Shown: piece by piece, positions 1,813-24,091 of the stretch | Layout: each line of letters begins with the position of its first letter | Numbering within the stretch: the first letter of the stretch is position 1 | Assembly (NCBI RefSeq): GCF_014649535.1 | Contig: NZ_BMTF01000015.1 | Coordinates: forward strand, 56,230-120,229 | Source of the DNA: Streptomyces gelaticus | GTDB lineage: Bacteria; Actinomycetota; Actinomycetes; Streptomycetales; Streptomycetaceae | Direction of reading: 5' to 3' | Length of the DNA: 64,000 bases | Made by a program: the position numbers and the translations under genes | Notes under the pieces: model-generated | Told to the model about the DNA's origin: nothing | Databases searched by the model: none | The model's input: only the letters and a program-made list of their open reading frames with translations

Positions 1813-3312
1813 TCAGGCGCCGGGGATCTGCTCGATCCGTTCGCGGTTGAGCAGGTACCGGGGAAGGTGCGGCCGGTCCGGAGCGACGGGGAACCCGTAG
1901 TCGAAGGCGAGACTCGCCATCGCCAGTGCCCCCAGGGCCACTTGGGCGCGCGGTGCCGCCGACTCGCCCCAGTAGGCGCCGTGCTCCGTGAGGGCTTCGG
2001 CGAGCGCCTCGGCGAAGCTGTCGTGGTCCCGGGCGATGAGCCGGTGGAAGAGCGCGACCGGCTGGTAGTCGATCGCGTTCACGAACTCCATCGGCGCGCA
2101 GGTCACCTCGTCGGGCCCGGACGCCTTCATCGTGGCGACCAGCTTCTCCACGACCCCGTCCATGGAGTCGCGCCCGGAGAAGAAGGTCCGCAGGGTGTCG
2201 ATCCAGCACAGCACATACGTGTCGGCGGAATCGTCCTGCCGCAGCGTCTCCAGCGGTACCTGGCACAGTCGCCGGATCCGGTCGTCCTCGCGGCACACGA
2301 TCGCCAGGTAGAGGGCGTCGAGCCAGGCGCGGGCGTCTGCGGGCGGTGCGGCGGGAGTGGTCGGCAACTGCCGGACGAGGTCTTCGCCCAGCCGGCATTC
2401 CTGCGGCCGCGCACCGGTGAACAGGGCGGAGCCGAGCTGTACGGCGGTGGCCCAGGCATCCCACGTGTCGATCCCCGCCGCCCTGGGATCGGCGGCGCAG
2501 TGGGCGAGGGCGTGGGCGACGGCGGAGGCGAAGGCGTCGCCCACGCCGGCGGCCGGGTCCCGGGAAAGACCCGCTATCGACTCGGCCGTGGCGCGGGTGA
2601 GTTCGGCGAGGCCGGGAGCGGGCGCCGTGGCGGCGGCACGGGTGGCGAGCCGGCCGGCGCGGTCGAGACGGACCAGGCCCTTCATCAGGCCGAGCAGCTC
2701 CGGCGGCGGCTGGACGGAGAAGGACCGGGTGCCCTCGTCGATGAACGTGATCGACGTCAGGCTGCCGCGGTGCCACCAGTAGACCCGCGGGGACAGCGCG
2801 CCCGGCCCGTCCTCGTAGGCCCCCAGCGCGTAGGCCGCGAGGGCGTTGACGGCGTCGACCACCGTGCCGTCGGCGATCGGGTGGTACACCAGGTTGTGAC
2901 GGCTCGGCATGACGACGAGGGCACCGGCGTGCGGCAGCGACTCACCGGTGACCTGCCGGACCGCGGCGGACAGGAACAGGGCCTGGCTGCCGACGAAGTG
3001 CGAGTCACCGTAGAGGGAATGCAGGATCGCCCCCTCGACGGGGACCTCCTCGTGCGTGACGGGTACGCGCATCAGATTCTCGTACGCCGCCCGCCCCAAC
3101 TCCTCCAGGCCGACGCGCTCCACGTCAGGGTCGGTGAGGAGCCGCACATCGGTGGGACGGTCCAGGGCATAGGCGAACACGAGGCCGTCGGCTACGAGCC
3201 GCGCGTAGCGGAGGGAGCCGGCGATCTCGGCGGTGATCGCGTCGGCGGGCAGCAGCCGGGCGTACGTACCGCGCAGCAGTTCGTCGGTGTCGGGAGTGTG
3301 GTCCGGGTTCAT
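1813..3312 (-). CDS. DUF1444-like domain fused to an Imm49-family immunity domain
   Basis: The protein has 499 residues from the ATG at 3312. The C-terminal half (~255-499) matches the Imm49 pattern: WLDALYLAIVCREDDRIRRLC, a Trp/Asp-rich middle helix, PVALFHRLIARD, YWGESA and the terminal FDYGFPV...LPRYLL. Imm49 proteins are predicted immunities in polymorphic-toxin loci. The N-terminal half (~1-240) has a DUF1444/YtpQ-like layout, with VPVEGAILHSLYGD, a FVGSQALFLSAAV segment and a YWWHRGSL strand. No signal peptide or TM is seen, so it is probably cytoplasmic. No toxin gene is adjacent, making it an orphan immunity or a regulatory protein. The Imm49 call is from motif memory; the DUF1444 call is weaker. 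Confidence 0.65.
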   Translation of the reverse strand: MNPDHTPDTDELLRGTYARLLPADAITAEIAGSLRYARLVADGLVFAYALDRPTDVRLLTDPDVERVGLEELGRAAYENLMRVPVTHEEVPVEGAILHSLYGDSHFVGSQALFLSAAVRQVTGESLPHAGALVVMPSRHNLVYHPIADGTVVDAVNALAAYALGAYEDGPGALSPRVYWWHRGSLTSITFIDEGTRSFSVQPPPELLGLMKGLVRLDRAGRLATRAAATAPAPGLAELTRATAESIAGLSRDPAAGVGDAFASAVAHALAHCAADPRAAGIDTWDAWATAVQLGSALFTGARPQECRLGEDLVRQLPTTPAAPPADARAWLDALYLAIVCREDDRIRRLCQVPLETLRQDDSADTYVLCWIDTLRTFFSGRDSMDGVVEKLVATMKASGPDEVTCAPMEFVNAIDYQPVALFHRLIARDHDSFAEALAEALTEHGAYWGESAAPRAQVALGALAMASLAFDYGFPVAPDRPHLPRYLLNRERIEQIPGA

Positions 3313-3714
3313 CTCCCCGACTCTACGAAGGTCACGAAGGTGGTGTGCGGGCGGGCGGGCGGCCCGGCCTCCGAGCCGGTTCCTGCCGGTTCCGGGCCGG
3401 GTTCCGCTGGAGGACCCAAGGGGGGCCGCCACAGCCGGTCTTGGGCCCTTTGGCAGCCGCTCAGGTGGCCGCCGACGCGGCATCGCCCATGACGACGACC
3501 GGATGGCGCGCCGGGTCGAGGGACGGCCTGCCTCCTGTCTGCGCCCCGGCTGGCCGCGCCGCGCGCGGGCCTTGATGAAGCAGGGAAAGTCCTACCCCGC
3601 TGGAATGAGTTGCTTGTCGTCGTGGCTTCGTGCGTGGGGTCGTTGCTGTCCAGGGCATCCATGAGCCTGATCGTGTAGACCTCGGACATGCGCTCGCTGA
3701 CTTCGTCGGGCGGA
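3313..3714. other. intergenic stretch without a supported gene
   Basis: This lies between the Imm49-fusion start and the integrase remnant. It is G-rich near 3345-3420. The short minus frame beginning near 3689 (start MSEVYTIRLMDALD) is not recognisable and quickly becomes low complexity. No promoter or terminator can be assigned with confidence. Confidence 0.4.
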
Positions 3715-3990
3715 GCCGCCGCCGGGCCGCCCCGCTGCCCGCCCTGTGCTCGCGCCTCTTCGCCGACAGCGGATGCGGCAGGCGGTTGCTCGGGCCAAGT
3801 CGGCGGATCAGTGGCAGGAGTCCGGCTACGTCTTCACCACCCGCACCGGCCGCCAGGTCGAGCCGCGGAACGTCTACCGCTCCTTCACCCGCGTCGCCGA
3901 GTCCGTCGCACGCACGTCGTGCAGGACACCCAGCGTGAGGCGATCAGCCACATGGACCGGCTGCTCAGGCGCCGTCTGCCAGGCTCCTGA
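3715..3990 (+). pseudogene. decayed tyrosine recombinase (integrase) fragment
   Basis: C-terminal pieces of a phage/ICE-type integrase lie in three different frames. PLPALC is near 3734. A second piece near 3760-3905 reads ARAKSADQWQESGYVF, TTRTGRQVEPRNVYRSF and TRVAES. A third near 3915-3990 reads HVVQDTQREAISHMDR. The central block normally holding the catalytic R-H-x-x-H/Y region is missing between the second and third pieces, so it cannot be functional. It sits just beyond the 3' end of a tRNA-Arg gene, the classic arrangement for a site-specific integrating element. It is best read as the scar of an excised or deleted element. Confidence 0.8.
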
Positions 3991-4015
3991 GACGCGACTG
4001 CCGTCAAATGGTGCC

Positions 4016-4053
4016 GTCAAAAGGCCCCGGACCATGATCGGTCCAGGGCCTTT
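4016..4053 (-). terminator. hairpin terminator of the tRNA-Arg gene
   Basis: An inverted repeat (AAAAGGCCC / GGGCCTTTT with inner GGACC / GGTCC) lies directly downstream of the tRNA 3' end on the minus strand. On that strand the stem ends in a run of T. Confidence 0.7.
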
Positions 4054-4057
4054 TGGC

Positions 4058-4133
4058 TGGTGCCCCCGGCAGGATTCGAACCTGCGACACCCGCTTTAGG
4101 AGAGCGGTGCTCTATCCCCTGAGCTACGAAGGC
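4058..4133 (-). tRNA. tRNA-Arg (anticodon CCT)
   Basis: The minus strand folds as a 76-nt cloverleaf including an encoded CCA. The acceptor GCCTTCG pairs with CGGGGGC (two G-U pairs), the anticodon stem CCGCT/AGCGG encloses loop CTCCTAA with anticodon CCT, and the T-loop is TTCGAAT. It decodes AGG. Its 3' end faces the integrase remnant, so this gene probably served as an attB site. Confidence 0.93.
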
Positions 4134-4332
4134 GAAGGCGGGGCTTGACTGCCCTGAGCGTCTCGGGGTCGGTCGCTGGTTTGTGGTGGCGGGTGAGTCG
4201 GTGCAGCACATCGCAGTGCCCGCCCGGGGCGCTCGACCCACAGGGTACCGGATCGGGGCTCGGGCGGGGGCTGGGGGCGGGCGGTTGTGTGTGCCGGCCC
4301 CCAGCCGGATGCCTGGTGGCGCGGGGCCCCGG

Positions 4333-4848
4333 CTACAGCTCCGCCTCCGCCTCCGCCTTCACCCCGGCCAGTGTCGTCTCGATGCCCGTGCGGAGCAGGG
4401 CGAGGCGGCCGTCGACGATCTGTTCCTCCCGCTCCGGGTGCTGGTCGATGAAGTCGTGCAGTGGGCCGCGGGCGGAGCCGAGGTGCATGCCGTGTCGCAG
4501 GCGGGTGCCGGAGCCGTCCGCGAGTGGTTCCAGGGTGTACGTCCAGACGGCCAGGGGCTCGCCGTGGTGCCGGTCGTTGTCGTAGACGACCTCCCACTGG
4601 AAGGCACGCCGGTCCGACATCTGCGCGACACGGCTGACCGTGCGCCATTCTCCCAGGCCGTCGTTGCGGTTGCGGCCGGAGAAGCAGGCGCCGACCGCGG
4701 GCCCTTCGGCCCCGTCGAGCCACTCCACCTCCTGCAGTTCCGGGCTGTACCGGGCCGAGGTGGAGATGTCCGAGACCAGCTCCCACACCCGTTGCGGCGG
4801 GGCGGCGATCTCGGTCACGCACTCCACACGGGCATCGGCGATACGCAT
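4333..4848 (-). CDS. SRPBCC (START-like) family protein
   Basis: This 171-residue protein has the polyketide-cyclase/SRPBCC layout: an initial strand ECVTEIAAPPQRVWELVSDI, ARYSPELQEVEWLDG, a W-x-V-x strand FQWEVVYDND and a terminal amphipathic helix EEQIVDGRLALLRTGIETTL. It is presumably a soluble protein with a hydrophobic ligand cavity; the ligand is unknown. The ATG at 4848 is fixed by a strong GGAGGAAG site a few bases upstream. The C-terminus ends in a short Glu-Ala repeat (AEAEAEL). No operon partner is evident. Confidence 0.85.
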   Translation of the reverse strand: MRIADARVECVTEIAAPPQRVWELVSDISTSARYSPELQEVEWLDGAEGPAVGACFSGRNRNDGLGEWRTVSRVAQMSDRRAFQWEVVYDNDRHHGEPLAVWTYTLEPLADGSGTRLRHGMHLGSARGPLHDFIDQHPEREEQIVDGRLALLRTGIETTLAGVKAEAEAEL

Positions 4849-5525
4849 GGTTCTTCCTCCTGGGCATGAAAGTGGCTGTGGAATGGGCTGTTGTGGGAAT
4901 CGGGGGTGGTTCGCGGGGGTCGGGCCGCGAGGTGCGGACCGGGCGGCGTGGCGCGGGAGGGGCGCCGCCCAGACTTCCAGGAGGTGGCCGAGTCCGCCAC
5001 GACCGCAGTCGCGATCACGCCATCGGCGACGCGCCACCGGCCCGGGACCGCGGCGAAGGCCCCCGCCGCGGCCGTGACGCCCCCGAAGGAGCCGCCGCTG
5101 TCCGCTTGGAACGTTACCTCCGCCTCCAGGAAGCCGAGTTCGGTGCGGGTCGGCGGGTACCGCGCATTGAAGACCCACTTCGCGCGCGGGCAATGGCCGG
5201 GGCGGGAAGCGGCCCCGGGGTGCCCGGTACGCCGGGCTGCCCAGCGGCAGTGGCGGCGCGTGCTGTGACAAGGGGGCTGTTCGCCGGGGGAGTTGGGGGT
5301 GGGCGTACCGTTCTGACTGACCAGCAAGAACCGTTGTTCAGCATGCGCGGGGGTGTTTCCGTATGCCCGCATGCCGTGTCCGCACCGCACCGCGGATTCC
5401 GGGGCCTCCCGGAGTGCCGGGGGCCGCCGCACGGGTGGCCGGGGGAAGCGGCGGGGCGTGGGTTCGGGAGCCCCCGGCCCGGACGTCGGGCGGCGCCTGA
5501 CCGACGCCGCCCCGAAGGACCCCCC
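4849..5525. other. 677-bp stretch without an intact gene; coding-like remnant on the minus strand
   Basis: No frame has a credible start, length and stop. On the minus strand a segment at about 4975-5190 reads WVFNARYPPTRTELGF and later GRWRVADGVIATAVVADS, with nearly all third positions G or C, which is typical of real coding sequence here. It loses this character on both sides. It is most simply a fragment of a lost gene. Nothing is recognised in 5200-5500. Confidence 0.4.
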
Positions 5526-6113
5526 ATGAAACGCCCTCTTGTTCCCTTTCTGGCTGCCCTTGCCTGCGCCGTCGCTCTCATCGTCGGGATCTCGATCGGA
5601 GGCAGTCCGGGCACGCCCACGGGCTTCCACCGGGGCAAGGACGGCACGCTGACGATAGACAGTGCGCACCGTCCCGCCGCGCCGGACCTCACCGGGACGG
5701 ATGTCGACGGGCGCCCGGTGCGGCTCGCCGACTACGCGGGGAAGACCGTCGTGGTCAACGCGTGGGCCTCCTGGTGCGAATCCTGCCGCGAGGAGACCCC
5801 GGTTCTGGTGCGTTACCACCAGAAGATGAAGGACCAGGGCGTCGTCGTCCTGGGGCTGAACCGGGACGGTACCGCCAATGCGGCGCGTGCCTTCGCCCGT
5901 GAGTTCCACATGCCCTACCCCAGCGTGCTCGACCCCGGGGGGAAGCACCTTCTTTCGCTGCCCAAGGGCGTGCTGAGCACCCAGAAGCTGCCGGTCACCC
6001 TTGTCGTGGACGAGCGGGGGCGGGTCGCCGCGTCGATGTCCGGGGCCGTCAAGGAAGGGCGTCTGGAGGGTCTTGTCGCCGCCGCGCGGGCCGGTTCTCC
6101 TGCCAAGCGCTGA
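5526..6113 (+). CDS. TlpA/ResA-type thioredoxin-fold protein, membrane-anchored or secreted
   Basis: The protein has 195 residues. An uncleaved or cleavable N-terminal hydrophobic segment (residues ~4-24, LVPFLAALACAVALIVGISI) is followed by an AhpC/TSA-Redoxin domain. The redox motif WASWCESCREE places Cys84 and Cys87 in a CxxC. The cis-Pro region KLPVTLVVDERGRV is present. Such proteins reduce or exchange disulfides outside the membrane, for example in cytochrome c maturation; no cytochrome gene is nearby, so the partner is unknown. The ATG at 5526 has a GAAGGA site about 7 nt upstream. The frame stays open further upstream but without this signal and without a membrane segment. Confidence 0.85.
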   Translation: MKRPLVPFLAALACAVALIVGISIGGSPGTPTGFHRGKDGTLTIDSAHRPAAPDLTGTDVDGRPVRLADYAGKTVVVNAWASWCESCREETPVLVRYHQKMKDQGVVVLGLNRDGTANAARAFAREFHMPYPSVLDPGGKHLLSLPKGVLSTQKLPVTLVVDERGRVAASMSGAVKEGRLEGLVAAARAGSPAKR

Positions 6114-6128
6114 GCGGGCCGGGATGTC

Positions 6129-6157
6129 TTGACGGGGGGCGGGTGCGGGCATAGCGT
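6129..6157 (+). promoter_or_regulatory. housekeeping-type promoter of the acyl-CoA ligase gene
   Basis: TTGACG at 6129-6134 and TAGCGT at 6152-6157 are separated by exactly 17 nt, close to the principal-sigma consensus. The start codon lies about 50 nt downstream. Confidence 0.65.
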
Positions 6158-6174
6158 CGCGAATGTACCGATGG

Positions 6175-6190
6175 CTGAGCAAGCGCTCAG
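6175..6190. promoter_or_regulatory. palindromic operator candidate in the acyl-CoA ligase leader
   Basis: CTGAGC-AAGC-GCTCAG is a perfect inverted repeat just downstream of the promoter. It resembles the GAGCAAGCGCTTG-type sites used by TetR-family regulators of fatty-acid genes in actinobacteria. The regulator is not encoded next to it. Confidence 0.55.
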
Positions 6191-6208
6191 ATGCTGGAGA
6201 GGTCGTTC

Positions 6209-7948
6209 GTGCCGCACACCGACCCCGCCCCCGCCGCCCCCGGCCCTGCCCCCGGCTCCGACCCGAGGGGCGCCGGCCGTGTCGAAGCCGCGTTGACCGG
6301 GCCGGGCGCCCCGTTCGCCGTGCTGCGAGTGGAGGACGGGGCACACGCCGGCTCGCTCGTGTACGCGGACGGGCCGCGGACGCTCCGGGAGTTCATGGAG
6401 ACCACCTGGGCCTTCGGGGACCGGCCGTTCCTGGTTTCCCGGGAGCGCAGCTACTCGTACGCCGAGTTCTTCGCCGCCGCGTCGGCGCTGGCGTGCCGGA
6501 TGACCGGGACGTACGGGCTGCGCCGGGGCGACCGGGCCGTCGTCGCGATGCGCAACCACCCCGAGTGGCAGATCGCCTTCTGGGCGGCGCAGCTGGCCGG
6601 CCTGGTCGCCGTGCCGCTCAACGCCTGGTGGACCGAGGACGAGTTCACGTACGCGCTGGACGACTGCGGGCCACGGGTGCTCCTGGTGGACGGCGAGCGG
6701 CTGCCCCGGGTCGCCGGGTGGGCGGCGAAGAACGGGGCGCGCGTGCTCGTCTTCCACGGGGACGAGACGCTCCCGGACGGTGCCGAGCGGTACGAGGACC
6801 TGCCCGCCCCCGATCCGCTCGTCGGGCCCCCCGAGGTCGAGATCCGGCCCGAGGACGACGCGACGATCATCTACACCTCCGGCACCACCGGCCGTCCCAG
6901 GGGCGTGGTCGCCACCCATCTCGCCCAGGCGGGGGCGGTGATCAACCCGCGCTTCCACGCGGCGGCCTCCGCGCTCGGCCGCGGGGTCGTCCCGGGGCAG
7001 GGGCCCGCCCCGGTGTCGCTGCTGACGTTCCCGTTCTTCCATGTCGCCGCGTTCACCGGCTTCTACGCGGCGATGGCGGCGGGCGGCACCCTCGTCCTGA
7101 TGCGGAAGTGGGACGCAGAGGAGGCGCTGCGGCTGATCCGCGAGCACGGTGTCACCCACTACGCCGGTGTTCCGGCGACCGCGCTCCAGCTGCTCGCCGC
7201 GGCCGAGCAGGCGGGCGACGGCCTGGAGAGCCTGCAGATGCTGAACACCGGCGGGGCCGCCGCCCCGCCCGATCTGGTCACCCGGCTGACCGCCCGGTAC
7301 GGCGACCGTATCGAACCCCGCAACGGATACGGGCTGACCGAGACCTGCGGGGGCGTCCTGGCGAACTTCGGCGCCGAGTACCGGCTCCACCCGGACAGCG
7401 TCGGCCGCCCGACCCCCGCCACCGAGGTGCGGATCGCCGGGCCCGCGGGCGAGCCGCTGCCCGAGGGTGAGGTCGGTGAGCTGTGGCTGCGCGGCCAGTC
7501 CCTGTTCCGCGGCTACTGGCGCGACGAGGCGGCGACCGGCCGGGCGTTCGCCGACGGCTGGTTCCGGACCGGTGATCTCGCCGTGGTGCGGGAGGGGCGG
7601 GTCTGCGTCGTCGACCGGATCAAGGACATGGTGATCCGCGGCGGGGAGAACGTGTACTGCATGGAGGTCGAGGCGGTGCTGCACGACCACCCGGACGTCG
7701 AGGACGCGGCGGTGCTGGGGGTGGCACACCCGGTTCTGGGCGAGGAGGTCGCCGCCGTCGTGCGGCTGCGGGCCGGTGCCGGTGTCACGGCCGAGGAGCT
7801 GAGGGCGCATGTCGGGCGCAGGCTGGCCGCGTTCAAGGTTCCGGCCCATGTGCTCGTACGGGAGGAGCCGCTGCCCCGGAATCCGGCCGGGAAGGTCCTC
7901 AAGCGCGAGCTGCGCGGGACCGTCGAGGCGGAGGTCCGCGGCGGGTGA
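6209..7948 (+). CDS. AMP-dependent acyl-CoA synthetase (fatty-acid-CoA ligase family)
   Basis: This 579-residue adenylate-forming enzyme activates a carboxylic acid with ATP and loads it on CoA. The P-loop-like A3 motif IIYTSGTTGRPRG lies at ~222-234. The motif NGYGLTETCGG is in the middle, and GDLAVVREGRVCVVDR with KDMVIRGGENVY marks the hinge and A8 region. NPAGKVLKREL near the C-terminus carries the catalytic Lys. The GTG at 6209 is chosen because GGAGAGG lies 7 nt upstream; the ATG at 6191 would put that site inside the gene. The acid substrate cannot be read; the FadR/TetR-like operator suggests fatty acids. Confidence 0.9.
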   Translation: MPHTDPAPAAPGPAPGSDPRGAGRVEAALTGPGAPFAVLRVEDGAHAGSLVYADGPRTLREFMETTWAFGDRPFLVSRERSYSYAEFFAAASALACRMTGTYGLRRGDRAVVAMRNHPEWQIAFWAAQLAGLVAVPLNAWWTEDEFTYALDDCGPRVLLVDGERLPRVAGWAAKNGARVLVFHGDETLPDGAERYEDLPAPDPLVGPPEVEIRPEDDATIIYTSGTTGRPRGVVATHLAQAGAVINPRFHAAASALGRGVVPGQGPAPVSLLTFPFFHVAAFTGFYAAMAAGGTLVLMRKWDAEEALRLIREHGVTHYAGVPATALQLLAAAEQAGDGLESLQMLNTGGAAAPPDLVTRLTARYGDRIEPRNGYGLTETCGGVLANFGAEYRLHPDSVGRPTPATEVRIAGPAGEPLPEGEVGELWLRGQSLFRGYWRDEAATGRAFADGWFRTGDLAVVREGRVCVVDRIKDMVIRGGENVYCMEVEAVLHDHPDVEDAAVLGVAHPVLGEEVAAVVRLRAGAGVTAEELRAHVGRRLAAFKVPAHVLVREEPLPRNPAGKVLKRELRGTVEAEVRGG

Positions 7949-10217: not shown

Positions 10218-10384
10218 CCCCCGCGCCGGGCTCCTGAACCAGGCGCCTGGTGACGCGTCGGCCGCGCCTTGACCATTCCTTCCCTTTTCGCCATCCCTTT
10301 CACCACCCGCCCATTCACCGGCATCCCGGTTCACGACTCTTCGCGTGCGTGCGCGTGCATGCGCGTTCTTAGGTGGATACCTCC

Positions 10385-11917
10385 ATGTCAAAAACAGCCG
10401 ATACCCGACTCCCGGACCCCAGTCGCTGGAAAGCGCTGGCGTTCATCGCCCTCGCGCAGCTGATGGTCGTGCTCGACGCCACGATCGTGAACATCGCGCT
10501 GCCGCACGCCCAGACGGCCCTGGGCATATCCGACGCCAACAAGCAGTGGGTCATCACGGCGTACGCCCTCGCCTTCGGCGGGCTGCTGCTCTTCGGCGGC
10601 CGGGTCGCCGACCTCTGGGGCCGCAAGCGGACCTTCGTCGTCGGCCTGATCGGCTTCGCGCTGGCCTCCGCGCTCGGTGGCGCGGCGCAGAACCAGGGCA
10701 TGCTCTTCGGTTCCCGCGCGCTCCAGGGCGTCTTCGGGGCGCTGCTCGCCCCGGCGGCCCTGTCGCTGCTCGCCGTGATGTTCACCGATGCCAAGGAGCG
10801 CGCCAAGGCGTTCGGCATCTACGGCGCGATCGCCGGTGGCGGCGGCGCCGTCGGCCTGATCCTCGGTGGCTTCCTGACCCAGGCGCTGAACTGGCGCTGG
10901 ACGTTCTTCGTCAACATCCCGTTCGCCGTCGTCGCGGCCGCGGGCGCGTACTTCGTGATCCGTGAGCCGTCCGGCAGCCGCAACCGCTCGCCGCTCGACA
11001 TCCCGGGCGTCGTCCTGTCCGCGCTGGGTCTGGTCTCGCTGGTGTACGGATTCACCCGGGCCGAGTCCGCCGGCTGGTCGGACGGGCTGACCATCGGCAT
11101 GTTCGTCGCGTCCGGTGTGCTGCTGCTGTCCTTCGTCCTGACCGAGTCCAGGGTCAAGTCGCCGCTGCTGCCGCTGCGCGTGGTGCTGGACCGCAACCGC
11201 GGTGGCGTCTACCTCTCGCTGGGGCTGGCCGTCATCGCGATGTTCGGGCTGTTCCTCTTCCTGACGTACTACCTCCAGGTGGTGAAGGGCTACTCGCCGA
11301 TCAGGACCGGTTTCGCCTTCCTGCCGATGATCGCGGGCATGATCACGGGCTCGACGCAGATCGGTGCCCGGCTGATGACCCGGGTCCCGGCGCGCAAGCT
11401 GATGGGCCCCGGCTTCCTGGCCGCGGCCGTCGGCATGCTGCTGCTGACCCAGCTGGAGATCGGCTCCTCCTACGTCGGACTCATCCTGCCCGCGCAGCTG
11501 CTGCTGGGCCTCGGCATGGGTACGGCGTTCATGCCGGCGATGTCGCTGGCCACACACGGTGTCGAGCCCCGGGACTCGGGTGTCGCGTCCGCGATGGTCA
11601 ACACCTCGCAGCAGGTGGGCGGCGCGATCGGTACGGCGCTGCTGAACACCATCGCCGCATCGGCGGCGACGGCGTACGCCTCCTCGCACGCCGCGCTCGG
11701 CGCCAGGAACCCGGAGCTGCTGAAGCTCCAGTCGATGGTGCACGGCTTCACCGGTGCCATCTGGTGGGCCGTCGGCATCCTGGCAGTGGCCTCCGCGATC
11801 GCGGTGACCCTCATCAACGCCGGGCGTCCCGCGGCGGGCCCGGTGACCGGATCCTCCGGTTCGGGTGACGCGGACGGCGTCGAGGACGAGTTCAAGGTCC
11901 CGGTCGTCGCCCACTGA
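10385..11917 (+). CDS. MFS transporter, DHA2 (EmrB/QacA) drug-efflux family
   Basis: The protein has 510 residues and 14 predicted TM segments. DHA2 signatures are visible: LDATIVNIALPHAQ in TM1, the loop motif A-like GGRVADLWGRKRTF, and GPGFLAAAVGMLLL. It probably exports a hydrophobic compound by proton antiport. The ATG at 10385 follows AGGTGG by 8 nt; a GTG 12 nt earlier overlaps that site and is less likely. The gene ends before a strong bidirectional terminator. The TetR gene upstream is its likely regulator. Confidence 0.9.
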   Translation: MSKTADTRLPDPSRWKALAFIALAQLMVVLDATIVNIALPHAQTALGISDANKQWVITAYALAFGGLLLFGGRVADLWGRKRTFVVGLIGFALASALGGAAQNQGMLFGSRALQGVFGALLAPAALSLLAVMFTDAKERAKAFGIYGAIAGGGGAVGLILGGFLTQALNWRWTFFVNIPFAVVAAAGAYFVIREPSGSRNRSPLDIPGVVLSALGLVSLVYGFTRAESAGWSDGLTIGMFVASGVLLLSFVLTESRVKSPLLPLRVVLDRNRGGVYLSLGLAVIAMFGLFLFLTYYLQVVKGYSPIRTGFAFLPMIAGMITGSTQIGARLMTRVPARKLMGPGFLAAAVGMLLLTQLEIGSSYVGLILPAQLLLGLGMGTAFMPAMSLATHGVEPRDSGVASAMVNTSQQVGGAIGTALLNTIAASAATAYASSHAALGARNPELLKLQSMVHGFTGAIWWAVGILAVASAIAVTLINAGRPAAGPVTGSSGSGDADGVEDEFKVPVVAH

Positions 11918-11950: not shown

Positions 11951-12002
11951 CGGCTGTGCCCCGGTTCCGGTCGGGCCTTCGACCGGAACCGGGGCACAGC
12001 CG
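11951..12002. terminator. long bidirectional hairpin terminator
   Basis: Perfect 23-bp arms (11951-11973 and 11980-12002) with a 6-nt loop lie between the convergent DHA2 and MarR genes. Confidence 0.85.
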
Positions 12003-12020: not shown

Positions 12021-12533
12021 TCAGCGCAGCCAGGGGAGATCCGCGTCCGTGCCCTCCGGCTGCAGTCCGGCGGCGACCACCTGCATGATCTCGCCCAGCG
12101 AGCGCACCTGCTCGGGCGTGAGCCGGTCGAACATGGCCTGGCGTACGGCGTCGACATGGCCCGGCGCGGACCGGCGCAGCATCTCGTAGCCGTCGTCGGT
12201 GAGGACCGCGTTCTGGCCCCGCTTGTCGGACGGGCAGTCCTCGCGGCGCACCCAGCCGCTCTTCTCCAGGCGTGCGACGGCGTGCGAGAGCCGCGAGCGG
12301 GTGATCTTGGCGTCCTTGGCCAGTTCCGTCATCCGCTTCCGGCGGCGGGGGGCCTGGGAGAGCTGGACGAGCAGACCGTAGTAGATGTGCGGCATGCCGG
12401 CATCGCGCTGCAACTGGCGGTCGAGGTGGTCCTCCATGAGCGTGGTGGCATGGAGATACGCGCGCCAGACGCTCTGCTCTTCGTCGGAGAGCCAGCGGGG
12501 CTCACCGGTGGGTGCCGTGGTCATGTACTCCAC
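12021..12533 (-). CDS. MarR-family transcriptional regulator
   Basis: This 170-residue protein has a winged-HTH core: LLVQLSQAPRRRKRMTELAKDAKITRSRLSHAVARLEKSGWVRR, with a wing at CPSDKRGQNAVLTDDG. The recognition helix (RSRLSHAVARLE) and the DKRG wing are typical of MarR. It is divergently arranged with the ring-cleavage-type dioxygenase gene and shares a 140-bp control region containing a palindrome within the promoter spacer. This matches MhqR/YodB-like pairs in which a MarR protein represses a dioxygenase in response to quinones or aromatics; that role is inferred. Confidence 0.9.
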   Translation of the reverse strand: MEYMTTAPTGEPRWLSDEEQSVWRAYLHATTLMEDHLDRQLQRDAGMPHIYYGLLVQLSQAPRRRKRMTELAKDAKITRSRLSHAVARLEKSGWVRREDCPSDKRGQNAVLTDDGYEMLRRSAPGHVDAVRQAMFDRLTPEQVRSLGEIMQVVAAGLQPEGTDADLPWLR

Positions 12534-21075: not shown

Positions 21076-21121
21076 TGCGTGCTCCTCACTGCGCGAGCCG
21101 TCGCCGGCCGTCCACGTGCGC

Positions 21122-22291
21122 TCATTCGGCCTCGGCGGGCCGCCGGGACAGCAGCTCCCCCACGGCCACGGCCGCCGCGGCCACCAGACCGGCCGTGAAC
21201 ACCGCCCACCCGCCGGCGAACGTACAGGCCAGGATCGCCAGCGCGGCCACGGGGAGGGACAGCTGCTCCGCGAGGTCGCGCTTGAAGTGGCGGGCGTGCA
21301 GCGCCCACACCGTCAGCAGGAACAGCGCGGAGGGAATGGTCACCGCGGCGGCGGCCACGGTGTCCGAGACGTGGGCCTTGCCCACGGCCTCCTCCACCGC
21401 GACCTCGATGCCCGCGCCGATGGCGGCCGCGGAACCGAAGATCAGGAAGTGTCCGTATCCCCAGAGGAACGCTTCCCTGCTCCCGCGCAGGTAGTCATGG
21501 ATCGGCACGGCGAAATAGATCCACCAGGCGGAGAAGACGATCAGCAGCCCGCCCGCGGCGATCGGCAGCAGGTCGCCGAGTGCGTCGTGCTCGTACACCG
21601 ACTGCTGGACCGCGACCGTGGCCGCCGCGATGGTCTCGCCCAGCACGATGATCGTGAACAGCCCGTAGCGCTCACTGATGTGTTGCGGATGCCAGCTCGT
21701 CGAGCGGTCACGCTCGGCGATCGCCGGAACGGACAGCTCCGCGAGCACGAGCACGACGAAGACGGCGGTAAGGGCTCCGCGCGAGTCGGCGGGCAGCAGC
21801 AGCATGGCGATCCAGCCCAGCTGCACCACCGTGATCCCGATGGCGTACCGCAGCGCGACGCGCCGCTCCCCGCCCCGGGTGCAGTGCGCGGCGCGCAGCC
21901 ACTGGCTGGTCAGCGCGAGCCGCATCACCACGTAGCCGATGACGACGACCGTCCAGTCGCCCGCGTCGAAGGCGCGCGGCACTCCGGCGGCGAGGACGAG
22001 CACCCCGGTGATCTGGACGAGCGTGACGACGCGGTACAGCGGGTCGTCGGTGTCGTAGGCCGAGGCGAACCAGCTGAAGTTGACCCAGGCCCACCAGATC
22101 GCGAAGAAGACGGCCGCGTAGCTGCCGATTCCGGTGAGGGCGTGGCCCTCGGCGACGGCATGGACCAGCCGCGCGCCCGCTTGGGCCACGGCGACCACGA
22201 AGCAGAGGTCGAAGAAGAGCTCCAGCGGAGTGGAGGCGCGATGTTTCTCGGTGCGGCTGCGAGCCGTCATTACGGGCATGGGAACCAGCAC
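21122..22291 (-). CDS. ltrA: low-temperature-requirement A (LtrA) family membrane protein
   Basis: This protein of up to 389 residues has about 11-12 TM segments. Family signatures are STPLELFFDLCFVVAVAQAG at the N-terminus, WWAWVNFSWFASAYDTDD, HISERYGLFTIIVLGETI in the middle and WWIYFAVPIHDYL. LtrA was named from Listeria growth at low temperature; the biochemical role is unknown. The start is uncertain: GTG 22291, ATG 22279 and ATG 22270 are in frame and none has a strong ribosome binding site. The shortest (MTARSRTEKHRAS) fits the family best. Confidence 0.87.
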   Translation of the reverse strand: MLVPMPVMTARSRTEKHRASTPLELFFDLCFVVAVAQAGARLVHAVAEGHALTGIGSYAAVFFAIWWAWVNFSWFASAYDTDDPLYRVVTLVQITGVLVLAAGVPRAFDAGDWTVVVIGYVVMRLALTSQWLRAAHCTRGGERRVALRYAIGITVVQLGWIAMLLLPADSRGALTAVFVVLVLAELSVPAIAERDRSTSWHPQHISERYGLFTIIVLGETIAAATVAVQQSVYEHDALGDLLPIAAGGLLIVFSAWWIYFAVPIHDYLRGSREAFLWGYGHFLIFGSAAAIGAGIEVAVEEAVGKAHVSDTVAAAAVTIPSALFLLTVWALHARHFKRDLAEQLSLPVAALAILACTFAGGWAVFTAGLVAAAAVAVGELLSRRPAEAE

Positions 22292-22403
22292 ACCAGACGG
22301 GCTCGGCCATGCCGAACGGGGGACGCCCCGTATGGTCGACGCAGGTCACCCGGCCGAGCCGCAAAACAGGACCAACCATCATGTACGACCCTACGTTGGC
22401 AGG

Positions 22404-22656
22404 GTGACAGAGCCGCCAGAGCCCTCCGCCGCAGCCGCGCAGCCCGCCCCCCCCGGATGCGGCTGTGCCCCAAGGGAATCAACGCGTACCAGCAGGTCAA
22501 CCACCCCGAACGGCTCACCGCCCCGCTGATGCGCCGCTCCCGTGACGAGGACTTCCGCGAGGTCTCCTGGGACGAGGCGCTCGACTTCACCGTCGCCGAG
22601 ATCGAACGCATCCAGCAGAGCTACGGCGGGGTGGTGCAGCAGGCGGACACCACCCG
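22404..22656 (+). pseudogene. 5' fragment of a molybdopterin oxidoreductase catalytic subunit
   Basis: A GTG at 22404 begins TEPPEPSAAAAQPAPP. The reading then shifts frame at a run of eight C (22447-22454). In the new frame the text is CPKGINAYQQVNHPERL, TAPLMRR, FREVSWDEALDFTVAEIER and IQQSYGG. The second part is unmistakable N-terminal sequence of a DMSO-reductase/nitrate- or formate-dehydrogenase-type large subunit. The rest of the gene (several hundred residues) is gone: it ends abruptly at a 22-bp fold-back and joins a truncated ferredoxin. The N-terminal Fe-S cysteines before CPKG are also missing. Confidence 0.78.
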
Positions 22657-22684
22657 ATGCAGCGGGTGGTGTCCGCCTGCTGCA
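22635..22684. repeat. perfect 22-bp inverted repeat (fold-back) at a deletion junction
   Basis: Arms 22635-22656 and 22663-22684 are exact reverse complements with a 6-nt loop ATGCAG. The right arm is natural ferredoxin coding sequence; the left arm is an inverted copy. A second, overlapping 13-bp inverted match (CACCCGATGCAGC versus GCTGCATCGGGTG) covers the loop. The pattern suggests template switching during the deletion. Confidence 0.85.
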
Positions 22685-23022
22685 TCGGGTGCGCCAACTG
22701 CGTCAACGCCTGCCCCTTCGGCGTCCCGAAGATCGACCTCCGGGCGAAGCTGCAGATGAAATGCAACCTCTGCTACGACCGCACCGCCTACGGTCTCGCC
22801 CCCATGTGCGCGACCGTCTGCCCGACCGGAGCGCTGTTCTACGGGACCGTCGAGGAGCTCCAGGCCGAGCGCCCCGGCGTCCAGGTCGCCGACACCTTCA
22901 CCTTCGGGCGGAGCGAGGTACGCACCGGCGTGGCCATGGTCGTGCCGGCAGAGCGGATGCGGTGGCCGGTGCCCGGCGGCCTTCCTGTCGTCGAGATCAA
23001 CGGGAAGGACGTCCGCCGATGA
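22657..23022 (+). CDS. 4Fe-4S dicluster ferredoxin, N-terminally truncated
   Basis: This 121-residue reading frame starts inside the fold-back loop. It retains CCIGCANCVNACPFGVPK and MKCNLCYDRTAYGLAPMCATVCPTGAL, two cysteine clusters of the electron-transfer subunit that normally accompanies molybdopterin oxidoreductases. About half of such a protein, with the other cluster motifs, is missing upstream. No ribosome binding site is seen. The stop overlaps the ATG of the Rieske gene (ATGA), so its translation may still matter for coupling. It is probably non-functional as an enzyme subunit because its catalytic partner is destroyed. Confidence 0.75.
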   Translation: MQRVVSACCIGCANCVNACPFGVPKIDLRAKLQMKCNLCYDRTAYGLAPMCATVCPTGALFYGTVEELQAERPGVQVADTFTFGRSEVRTGVAMVVPAERMRWPVPGGLPVVEINGKDVRR

Positions 23023-23702
23023 GCGTCACCGACCAGCCGTCCTCCGGCGATCCGCGCGAGGCCCTGAGCGACCGGATCGCCGCCGACTCCCTCACCACCC
23101 GGCGCGACTACCTCCGGATCGTGGCGACCGTCTCCGGCGGACTCGCCGTCGGCGGCCTCGGTGTGGCAGGTGGAATCCTGCCGCGCCACGGCGACCCCGA
23201 CGACGCCAAGGCACCCTCGCCGAAGCGGATCGCCACTCAGCTCCTGCCCGGTGAGTCCCTCGCCTTCCGCTACCCCGACGAGGAGGACCGGGCGGTCGCC
23301 GTCCGGCTGGACGACGGCACCCTCGTCGGCTACTCGGCGATCTGCACCCATCTCGCCTGTGCCGTGCTCTGGCGCAAGGACCGCGGTACCGAGGGCGAGC
23401 TGTACTGCCCCTGCCATGAGGGCATCTTCGACGCCCGCACCGGTGAGGTCACCGCCGGGCCACCGCCCCGTGCGCTGCCCAAGGTGGTGCTGACCGAACA
23501 GGCCGACGGCAGCATCTGGGCGGTCGGCACGACCCGCTCGGGTGAGAGCGTCGAACACGGCCTGTGCCGTCAACTCGGGGAGAACCACCCGGACCTCGCC
23601 TCCCGTATCGGCTGTCCCGCCGTCAAGGGCGGCGGCGCGGAGGGCCCGTCGTTCGGGGCCGGGGCCGGGACCGGGGCCGACACCTCCGGCAGGCGGTCAT
23701 GA
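23019..23702 (+). CDS. Rieske [2Fe-2S] protein
   Basis: The protein has 227 residues. The N-terminus TTRRDYLRIVATVSGGLAVGG has the twin-Arg plus hydrophobic pattern of a Tat signal or anchor, so the cluster domain lies outside the membrane. The Rieske motifs are CTHLACAVLW and CPCHEGIFDARTG (C-x-H and C-x-x-H). The final 40 residues are Gly-rich and probably disordered. It overlaps the ferredoxin stop and the next gene's start by 4 nt on each side (ATGA both times), so it belongs to the molybdopterin-oxidoreductase operon. Without the catalytic subunit it is probably orphaned. Confidence 0.87.
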   Translation: MSVTDQPSSGDPREALSDRIAADSLTTRRDYLRIVATVSGGLAVGGLGVAGGILPRHGDPDDAKAPSPKRIATQLLPGESLAFRYPDEEDRAVAVRLDDGTLVGYSAICTHLACAVLWRKDRGTEGELYCPCHEGIFDARTGEVTAGPPPRALPKVVLTEQADGSIWAVGTTRSGESVEHGLCRQLGENHPDLASRIGCPAVKGGGAEGPSFGAGAGTGADTSGRRS

Positions 23703-24091
23703 CCGACGCCCGGCAGTCCCGGAACCAGGAGCCGGAGTATCCGGCGTACCCGGAGTACCACCCGGGAAGTGTTCGCCCCGAACTCAACCGGCCCGTCCAC
23801 GAGCGCTATCCGCAGATCCGTGCCACCAGCGGCTACGGCGACCCCAGGGTCCGCCGCACCGGCCCCGGTCCGGGGGCGGGCACCGACCAGGAGCCCGAGC
23901 GGTCCTCGAAGCTGACGGCCCGGCTTGCCCTCGCCATGACGGTGGTCGTCGGACAGCTCTGGGGCCTGACCGTCGTCATCGACGCATGGATGGAGGGACA
24001 CACCGGCACGGCCTGGTGGGGTGCCGGCTTCCTCTGCCTCTCGTTCCTCGTCGTTCTCGGGCTGTGGCTGATCGACCCGAAGGATCGCTGA
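23699..24091 (+). CDS. small membrane protein of the Rieske operon
   Basis: The protein has 130 residues. A disordered Pro/Tyr/Arg-rich N-terminus (~1-72) is followed by two TM segments (LALAMTVVVGQLWGLTVVIDAW and WWGAGFLCLSFLVVLGLWLI). It probably anchors or quinol-couples the Rieske/ferredoxin complex; this role is inferred only from the 4-nt overlap with the Rieske gene. No family name is recognised. Confidence 0.75.
   Translation: MTDARQSRNQEPEYPAYPEYHPGSVRPELNRPVHERYPQIRATSGYGDPRVRRTGPGPGAGTDQEPERSSKLTARLALAMTVVVGQLWGLTVVIDAWMEGHTGTAWWGAGFLCLSFLVVLGLWLIDPKDR

Follow-up and report, generated by a model that had tools for sequence, protein, structure and literature searches.

The window, a 64,000-nt stretch of the Streptomyces gelaticus draft genome, carries the remains of an operon for a membrane protein, a molybdopterin oxidoreductase, a 4Fe-4S ferredoxin and a Rieske protein, interrupted within the former ferredoxin gene by a long perfect hairpin. 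The features of the locus, in window coordinates, are as follows.

22404..22451, + strand: what is left of the 5' end of the first operon gene (16 codons from a GTG start), colinear with the relative L039 to its position 2012
22447..22456, no strand: deletion junction 1, ~1.46 kb lost (L039 2013-3468), placed by BLAST blocks (22451 = L039 2012, 22453 = L039 3469)
22453..22627, + strand: internal remnant of the molybdopterin oxidoreductase, ~58 codons, by protein match to aa 83-142 of 774
22627..22628, no strand: deletion junction 2, ~2.14 kb lost relative to L039, at the in-frame fusion TAC GGC / GGG GTG GTG
22628..22656, + strand: native forward ferredoxin codons (GVVQQADTTR), including the left arm of the hairpin, by L039 alignment
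22635..22684, no strand: hairpin with 22-bp perfect arms and a 6-nt loop
22651..22691, no strand: overlapping 13-bp inverted repeat, perfect owing to the G at 22689
22657..22679, no strand: 23-nt inverted insert ATGCAGCGGGTGGTGTCCGCCTG, forming the loop and most of the right arm and shifting the frame, by reverse-complement match
22657..23022, + strand: ferredoxin-stub ORF from the ORF list, its first 7 codons (MQRVVSA) inside the inverted insert
22680..23022, + strand: 3' portion of the ferredoxin gene (113 codons out of 200), colinear by alignment to relatives
23019..23702, + strand: open gene for the operon's Rieske [2Fe-2S] protein (PF00355, 4.7e-10)
23699..24091, + strand: small downstream ORF (ORF list), colinear with relatives by alignment, no Pfam match

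In a sample of 392 genomes of the genus, one of them the window's own, 85 were found to have the ferredoxin at E <= 1e-20, with one match at that threshold in the window's genome. The open frame of this gene is at least 201 aa in the 84 other genomes and 158 aa in the window's genome. Approximately 8 kb around the operon was compared from 12 relatives, of which L039 is the closest (~90% identical here); ORFs were listed for L039, and the other 11 operons were judged by aligned blocks and ferredoxin frames. No sister strain was found, and ancestral states were taken from these relatives. The L039 operon comprises a membrane protein ORF (1965-3224), the molybdopterin oxidoreductase (~3221-5545), the ferredoxin (5553-6155) and the Rieske protein (6152-6865). 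The first of these genes encodes a collagen-like stretch (PF01391) followed by a membrane domain weakly similar to QmoC/TmcC. The oxidoreductase contains domains PF00384, PF01568 and PF04879, and its nearest families are assimilatory nitrate reductase NasC (NF047855; 754.2 bits against a cut-off of 1100) and formate dehydrogenase alpha (TIGR01591; 547.2 bits against a cut-off of 666.25); since the full enzyme of L039 falls below both curated cut-offs, we assign it no substrate. A second copy of the enzyme in the window's genome was considered and rejected, the sole strong match being the remnant itself and the three weak ones (27-32% identity) lying on two other contigs.

Alignment blocks relate window positions 21118-22451 to L039 679-2012, 22453-22626 to 3469-3642 (94% identical), 22624-22656 to 5780-5812 in forward orientation (91%), and the sequence from 22673 onward to L039 from 5806 onward. 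As read from these blocks, the operon is shorter than that of L039 by two deletions of ~1.46 and ~2.14 kb, in agreement with an earlier note on this DNA, which had proposed from the letters alone that several kilobases of the oxidoreductase/ferredoxin operon were lost. At the first junction, a C8 tract and CCGG can belong to either side, the right side reading AACCGGATGCGG in L039. The run of eight Cs at 22447-22454 (five in L039) is a possible site of slippage or sequencing error. The second junction, where the shared sequence is ~1 nt by reading, is by its codons an in-frame fusion of the molybdo-enzyme to the ferredoxin: TAC GGC occurs on the enzyme side in L035, while the ferredoxin side reads GAC GGN GTN GTN in relatives, with GGG GTG GTG in several.

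A repeat finder reproduced the hairpin in the assembly at the coordinates first described, with perfect arms at 22635-22656 and 22663-22684, the loop ATGCAG at 22657-22662, and the overlapping 13-bp inverted match at 22651-22663 and 22679-22691. The ATG of the ferredoxin stub, at 22657, lies inside the loop, again as previously proposed. Among 60 simulated 64-kb windows, generated with a second-order Markov (trinucleotide) model of the 64-kb window, the maximum perfect arm with a loop of <=20 was 14, reached once, and chance is therefore a poor explanation for a 22-bp hairpin. Folded as single-stranded DNA, positions 22625-22700 give a calculated -38 kcal/mol (z -8.4). Seven inverted repeats in the window are perfect over arms of at least 14 bp; those at 11951, 18940, 26763, 36442, 39648 and 49112 are intergenic by reading of the ORF list, in terminator-like positions, and the hairpin at 22635-22684 alone sits in former coding DNA. 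The repeat at 11951-12002 is the only longer perfect hairpin in the window (23-bp arms, 6-nt loop); it separates two convergent ORFs, which by eye resemble a transporter gene (10373-11917) and a MarR gene (12021-12533), and looks like a two-way terminator.

The earlier note had described the hairpin as an inverted copy of ferredoxin coding DNA. The copy is real, although the roles of the arms are the opposite of those described: the left arm is native, forward, in-frame ferredoxin sequence and it is the right arm that holds the insert. Given the GCG codon of this lineage, 23 of 23 nt of the insert match the reverse complement of the native sequence around it; against unchanged L039 the reverse complement is inexact. 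The alanine codon concerned is GCC in 75 of the 84 relatives, GCG in eight and GCA in one, and because both arms share the minority GCG, the insert must have been copied from the lineage's own gene. After the insert the native gene picks up again with CTGCATC. The insert supplies the ATG and first seven codons of the stub and shifts the frame. A further difference concerns the glycine codon at 22687-22689, for which 81 of 84 relatives have GGC and a single one GGG; the change from GGC to GGG, placing G at 22689, renders the 13-bp repeat perfect. This G may have been present before the event as part of a 6-base switch point, may be a later palindrome correction, or may be an ordinary substitution.

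All 84 relatives with the ferredoxin lack the insert, which polarises it as derived, and the 12 operons fetched all read through without it. One degenerate pattern each for the hairpin and the deletion join, run against a contig collection that may lack the window's genome or one very close to it, returned no match, and a search of 61 genomes with the junction DNA matched across the junction in the window's own genome alone. Among the relatives searched, no genome carrying the deletion only or the insert only was found.

A fold of this stability could suggest a selected element, either a terminator or attenuator ahead of the downstream Rieske gene or the end of a mobile element. We regard such a role as very improbable: the hairpin arose within a gene by copying of that gene's own sequence, no T run follows the stem by eye, and the structure is present once in the 7.75-Mb draft genome and in none of the 84 relatives. 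A mobile-element or terminator origin of the insert itself is rejected, the insert being the gene's own sequence inverted.

We consider it probable that the locus represents a decayed operon altered by two deletions and by a template switch during replication, the switch having more likely arisen separately from the deletions. Adjacent DNA copied in inverted orientation is a known footprint of replication template switching, the process that had been proposed at the outset. Under this reading, a polymerase on the ferredoxin gene would have quit its template at CACCCG and annealed to the opposite strand a few bases further on, using three shared bases, or six if G22689 was already present. Backward copying would then have covered 22-34 bases, a range that arises because the switch points cannot be placed to the base, and ended with a return at GCTGCA, six bases that are found nearby in both orientations. 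The native inverted repeat TGCAGC...GCTGCA, kept in 62 of 84 relatives, represents a pre-event repeat at this return point. Along such a path the native loop CTGCAT would have been flipped to ATGCAG, and the palindrome, imperfect until then, would have become a perfect hairpin.

To compare routes, two-switch models were scored over a 60-nt stretch, with set limits on position and length. The inter-strand model leaves one mismatch if both GCG and G22689 are taken as ancestral, two with GCG only and four with L039 unchanged, while the best intra-strand model, which folds on a zero-nt loop, has two, three and five mismatches in the same three cases. The single mismatch of the inter-strand model is an unrelated codon difference from L039, and in this model the first switch point is ambiguous over six or three bases and the return point over the six of GCTGCA. 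An intra-strand fold-back, in which the nascent strand primes on itself at TGCA or at CACCCG/CGGGTG and one or two loop bases change afterwards, is thus just one mismatch worse, and in its favour the repeat finder recovers 25-nt arms, 96% matched, centred on TGCA. The TGCA version, however, requires a zero-nt loop, and the CACCCG/CGGGTG version predicts the loop CTGCAT, whereas the observed ATGCAG is its exact reverse complement. The bases that stand against the intra-strand route are A22657 for the TGCA-centred fold, and A22657 together with G22662 for the fold with loop CTGCAT. Because TGCA within the loop is its own complement, the preference comes down to these one or two bases; by that margin the inverted loop favours inter-strand switching over self-primed fold-back, to which we give a low probability. 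Inversion of a loop or spacer is read as a sign of intermolecular switching in yeast genes (PMC8604942), and a complete loop inversion in rRNA is attributed to an inter-strand mechanism (PMC8794818). PMC8604942 reports spacer inversions only for repeats with arms over 9 bp, and the native arms here, at 6 bp, are shorter.

The fold-back had been placed at the deletion junction itself, yet junction 22627/22628 lies 29 nt upstream of the insert. This distance bears on a variant of the template-switch reading, in which one complex replication event (MMBIR/FoSTeS-like) of breakage and switching would account at once for the 2.1-kb deletion, the 29 nt of ferredoxin sequence and the inverted copy of 23 nt: after a jump out of the molybdo-enzyme gene into the ferredoxin gene, the fork would have copied ~29 nt, crossed to the opposite strand and come back. 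The short interval between the deletion join and the first switch, as well as the ~1 nt shared at the join, speaks for such an event. However, the insert begins in colinear ferredoxin sequence at a conserved short inverted repeat, and so could have arisen without the deletion. By rough arithmetic, a position in the ~640-bp remnant falls within 30 bp of either junction with a chance of about 1 in 5, and the second, distinct deletion implies more than one lesion. With 29 nt of colinear ferredoxin sequence in between and a conserved repeat at the insert, the earlier note's claim that deletion and hairpin share an event is left unproven, and we consider it possible but doubtful. Multi-jump junctions have been described in human genomes, and a single event here, if true, would be a bacterial counterpart of them, in an actinobacterium.

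The relaxed selection expected of an old pseudogene is not seen in the ferredoxin stub, which differs from L039 at 19 positions, G22689 among them, and has a dN/dS of 0.10 (5 nonsynonymous and 14 synonymous differences, which are small counts). This value is within the range of 0.09-0.25 obtained for six relatives' ferredoxins against L039. Corresponding values are 0.34 for the enzyme fragment (56 codons, too short to weigh), 0.28 for the Rieske gene and 0.26 for the upstream neighbour. For this reason the lesion looks recent; an assembly or library artefact would fit the same dN/dS. If the draft of 113 contigs contained a falsely joined stretch or a fold-back chimera, this would also be consistent with the absence of both the hairpin and the deletion join from every other genome searched. 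We judge such an artefact improbable, given that two deletion junctions and the insert occur in one operon within one contig, that the insert carries the lineage's own codon, and that the genome is 99.98% complete and 0.01% contaminated.

Taken as a decayed operon with a template-switch mutation, the locus offers a natural case, resolved to the base and from a high-GC bacterium, whose inverted loop points to an inter-strand switch. It also illustrates how a single step can give a gene remnant both a new start codon and a perfect hairpin. Among the papers listed by our literature search, none is by its title concerned with such an event in Streptomyces or in the pseudogene of any bacterium, although one may well be in print. 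Knowledge of the template-switch mechanism is unchanged by this case, and we place the hairpin in a mutation class already known, as a well-resolved example.

In the quasipalindrome template-switch mutations of Escherichia coli, at the thyA hotspot and in lacZ reporters, an imperfect inverted repeat likewise comes closer to perfect, one arm being copied from the other (PMC7202029); the reporters described there detect intramolecular switching through the removal of a 4-bp frameshift, whereas here a 23-nt insertion is accompanied by an inverted loop. At REG2 of Saccharomyces cerevisiae, PMC8604942 describes an arm extended from 5 bp to 16 bp with an inverted spacer, explained by intermolecular switching, and the inversion is common to both cases. 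The S. cerevisiae examples covered there are multinucleotide substitutions in protein-coding genes, in contrast to the gain of 23 nt in a broken gene. The loop inversions and stem insertions ascribed to template switching in rRNA, including an actinobacterial loop inversion, follow the same switch-point pattern (PMC8794818), though they affect RNA genes under structural selection, while the hairpin described here lies in the remnant of a protein gene.
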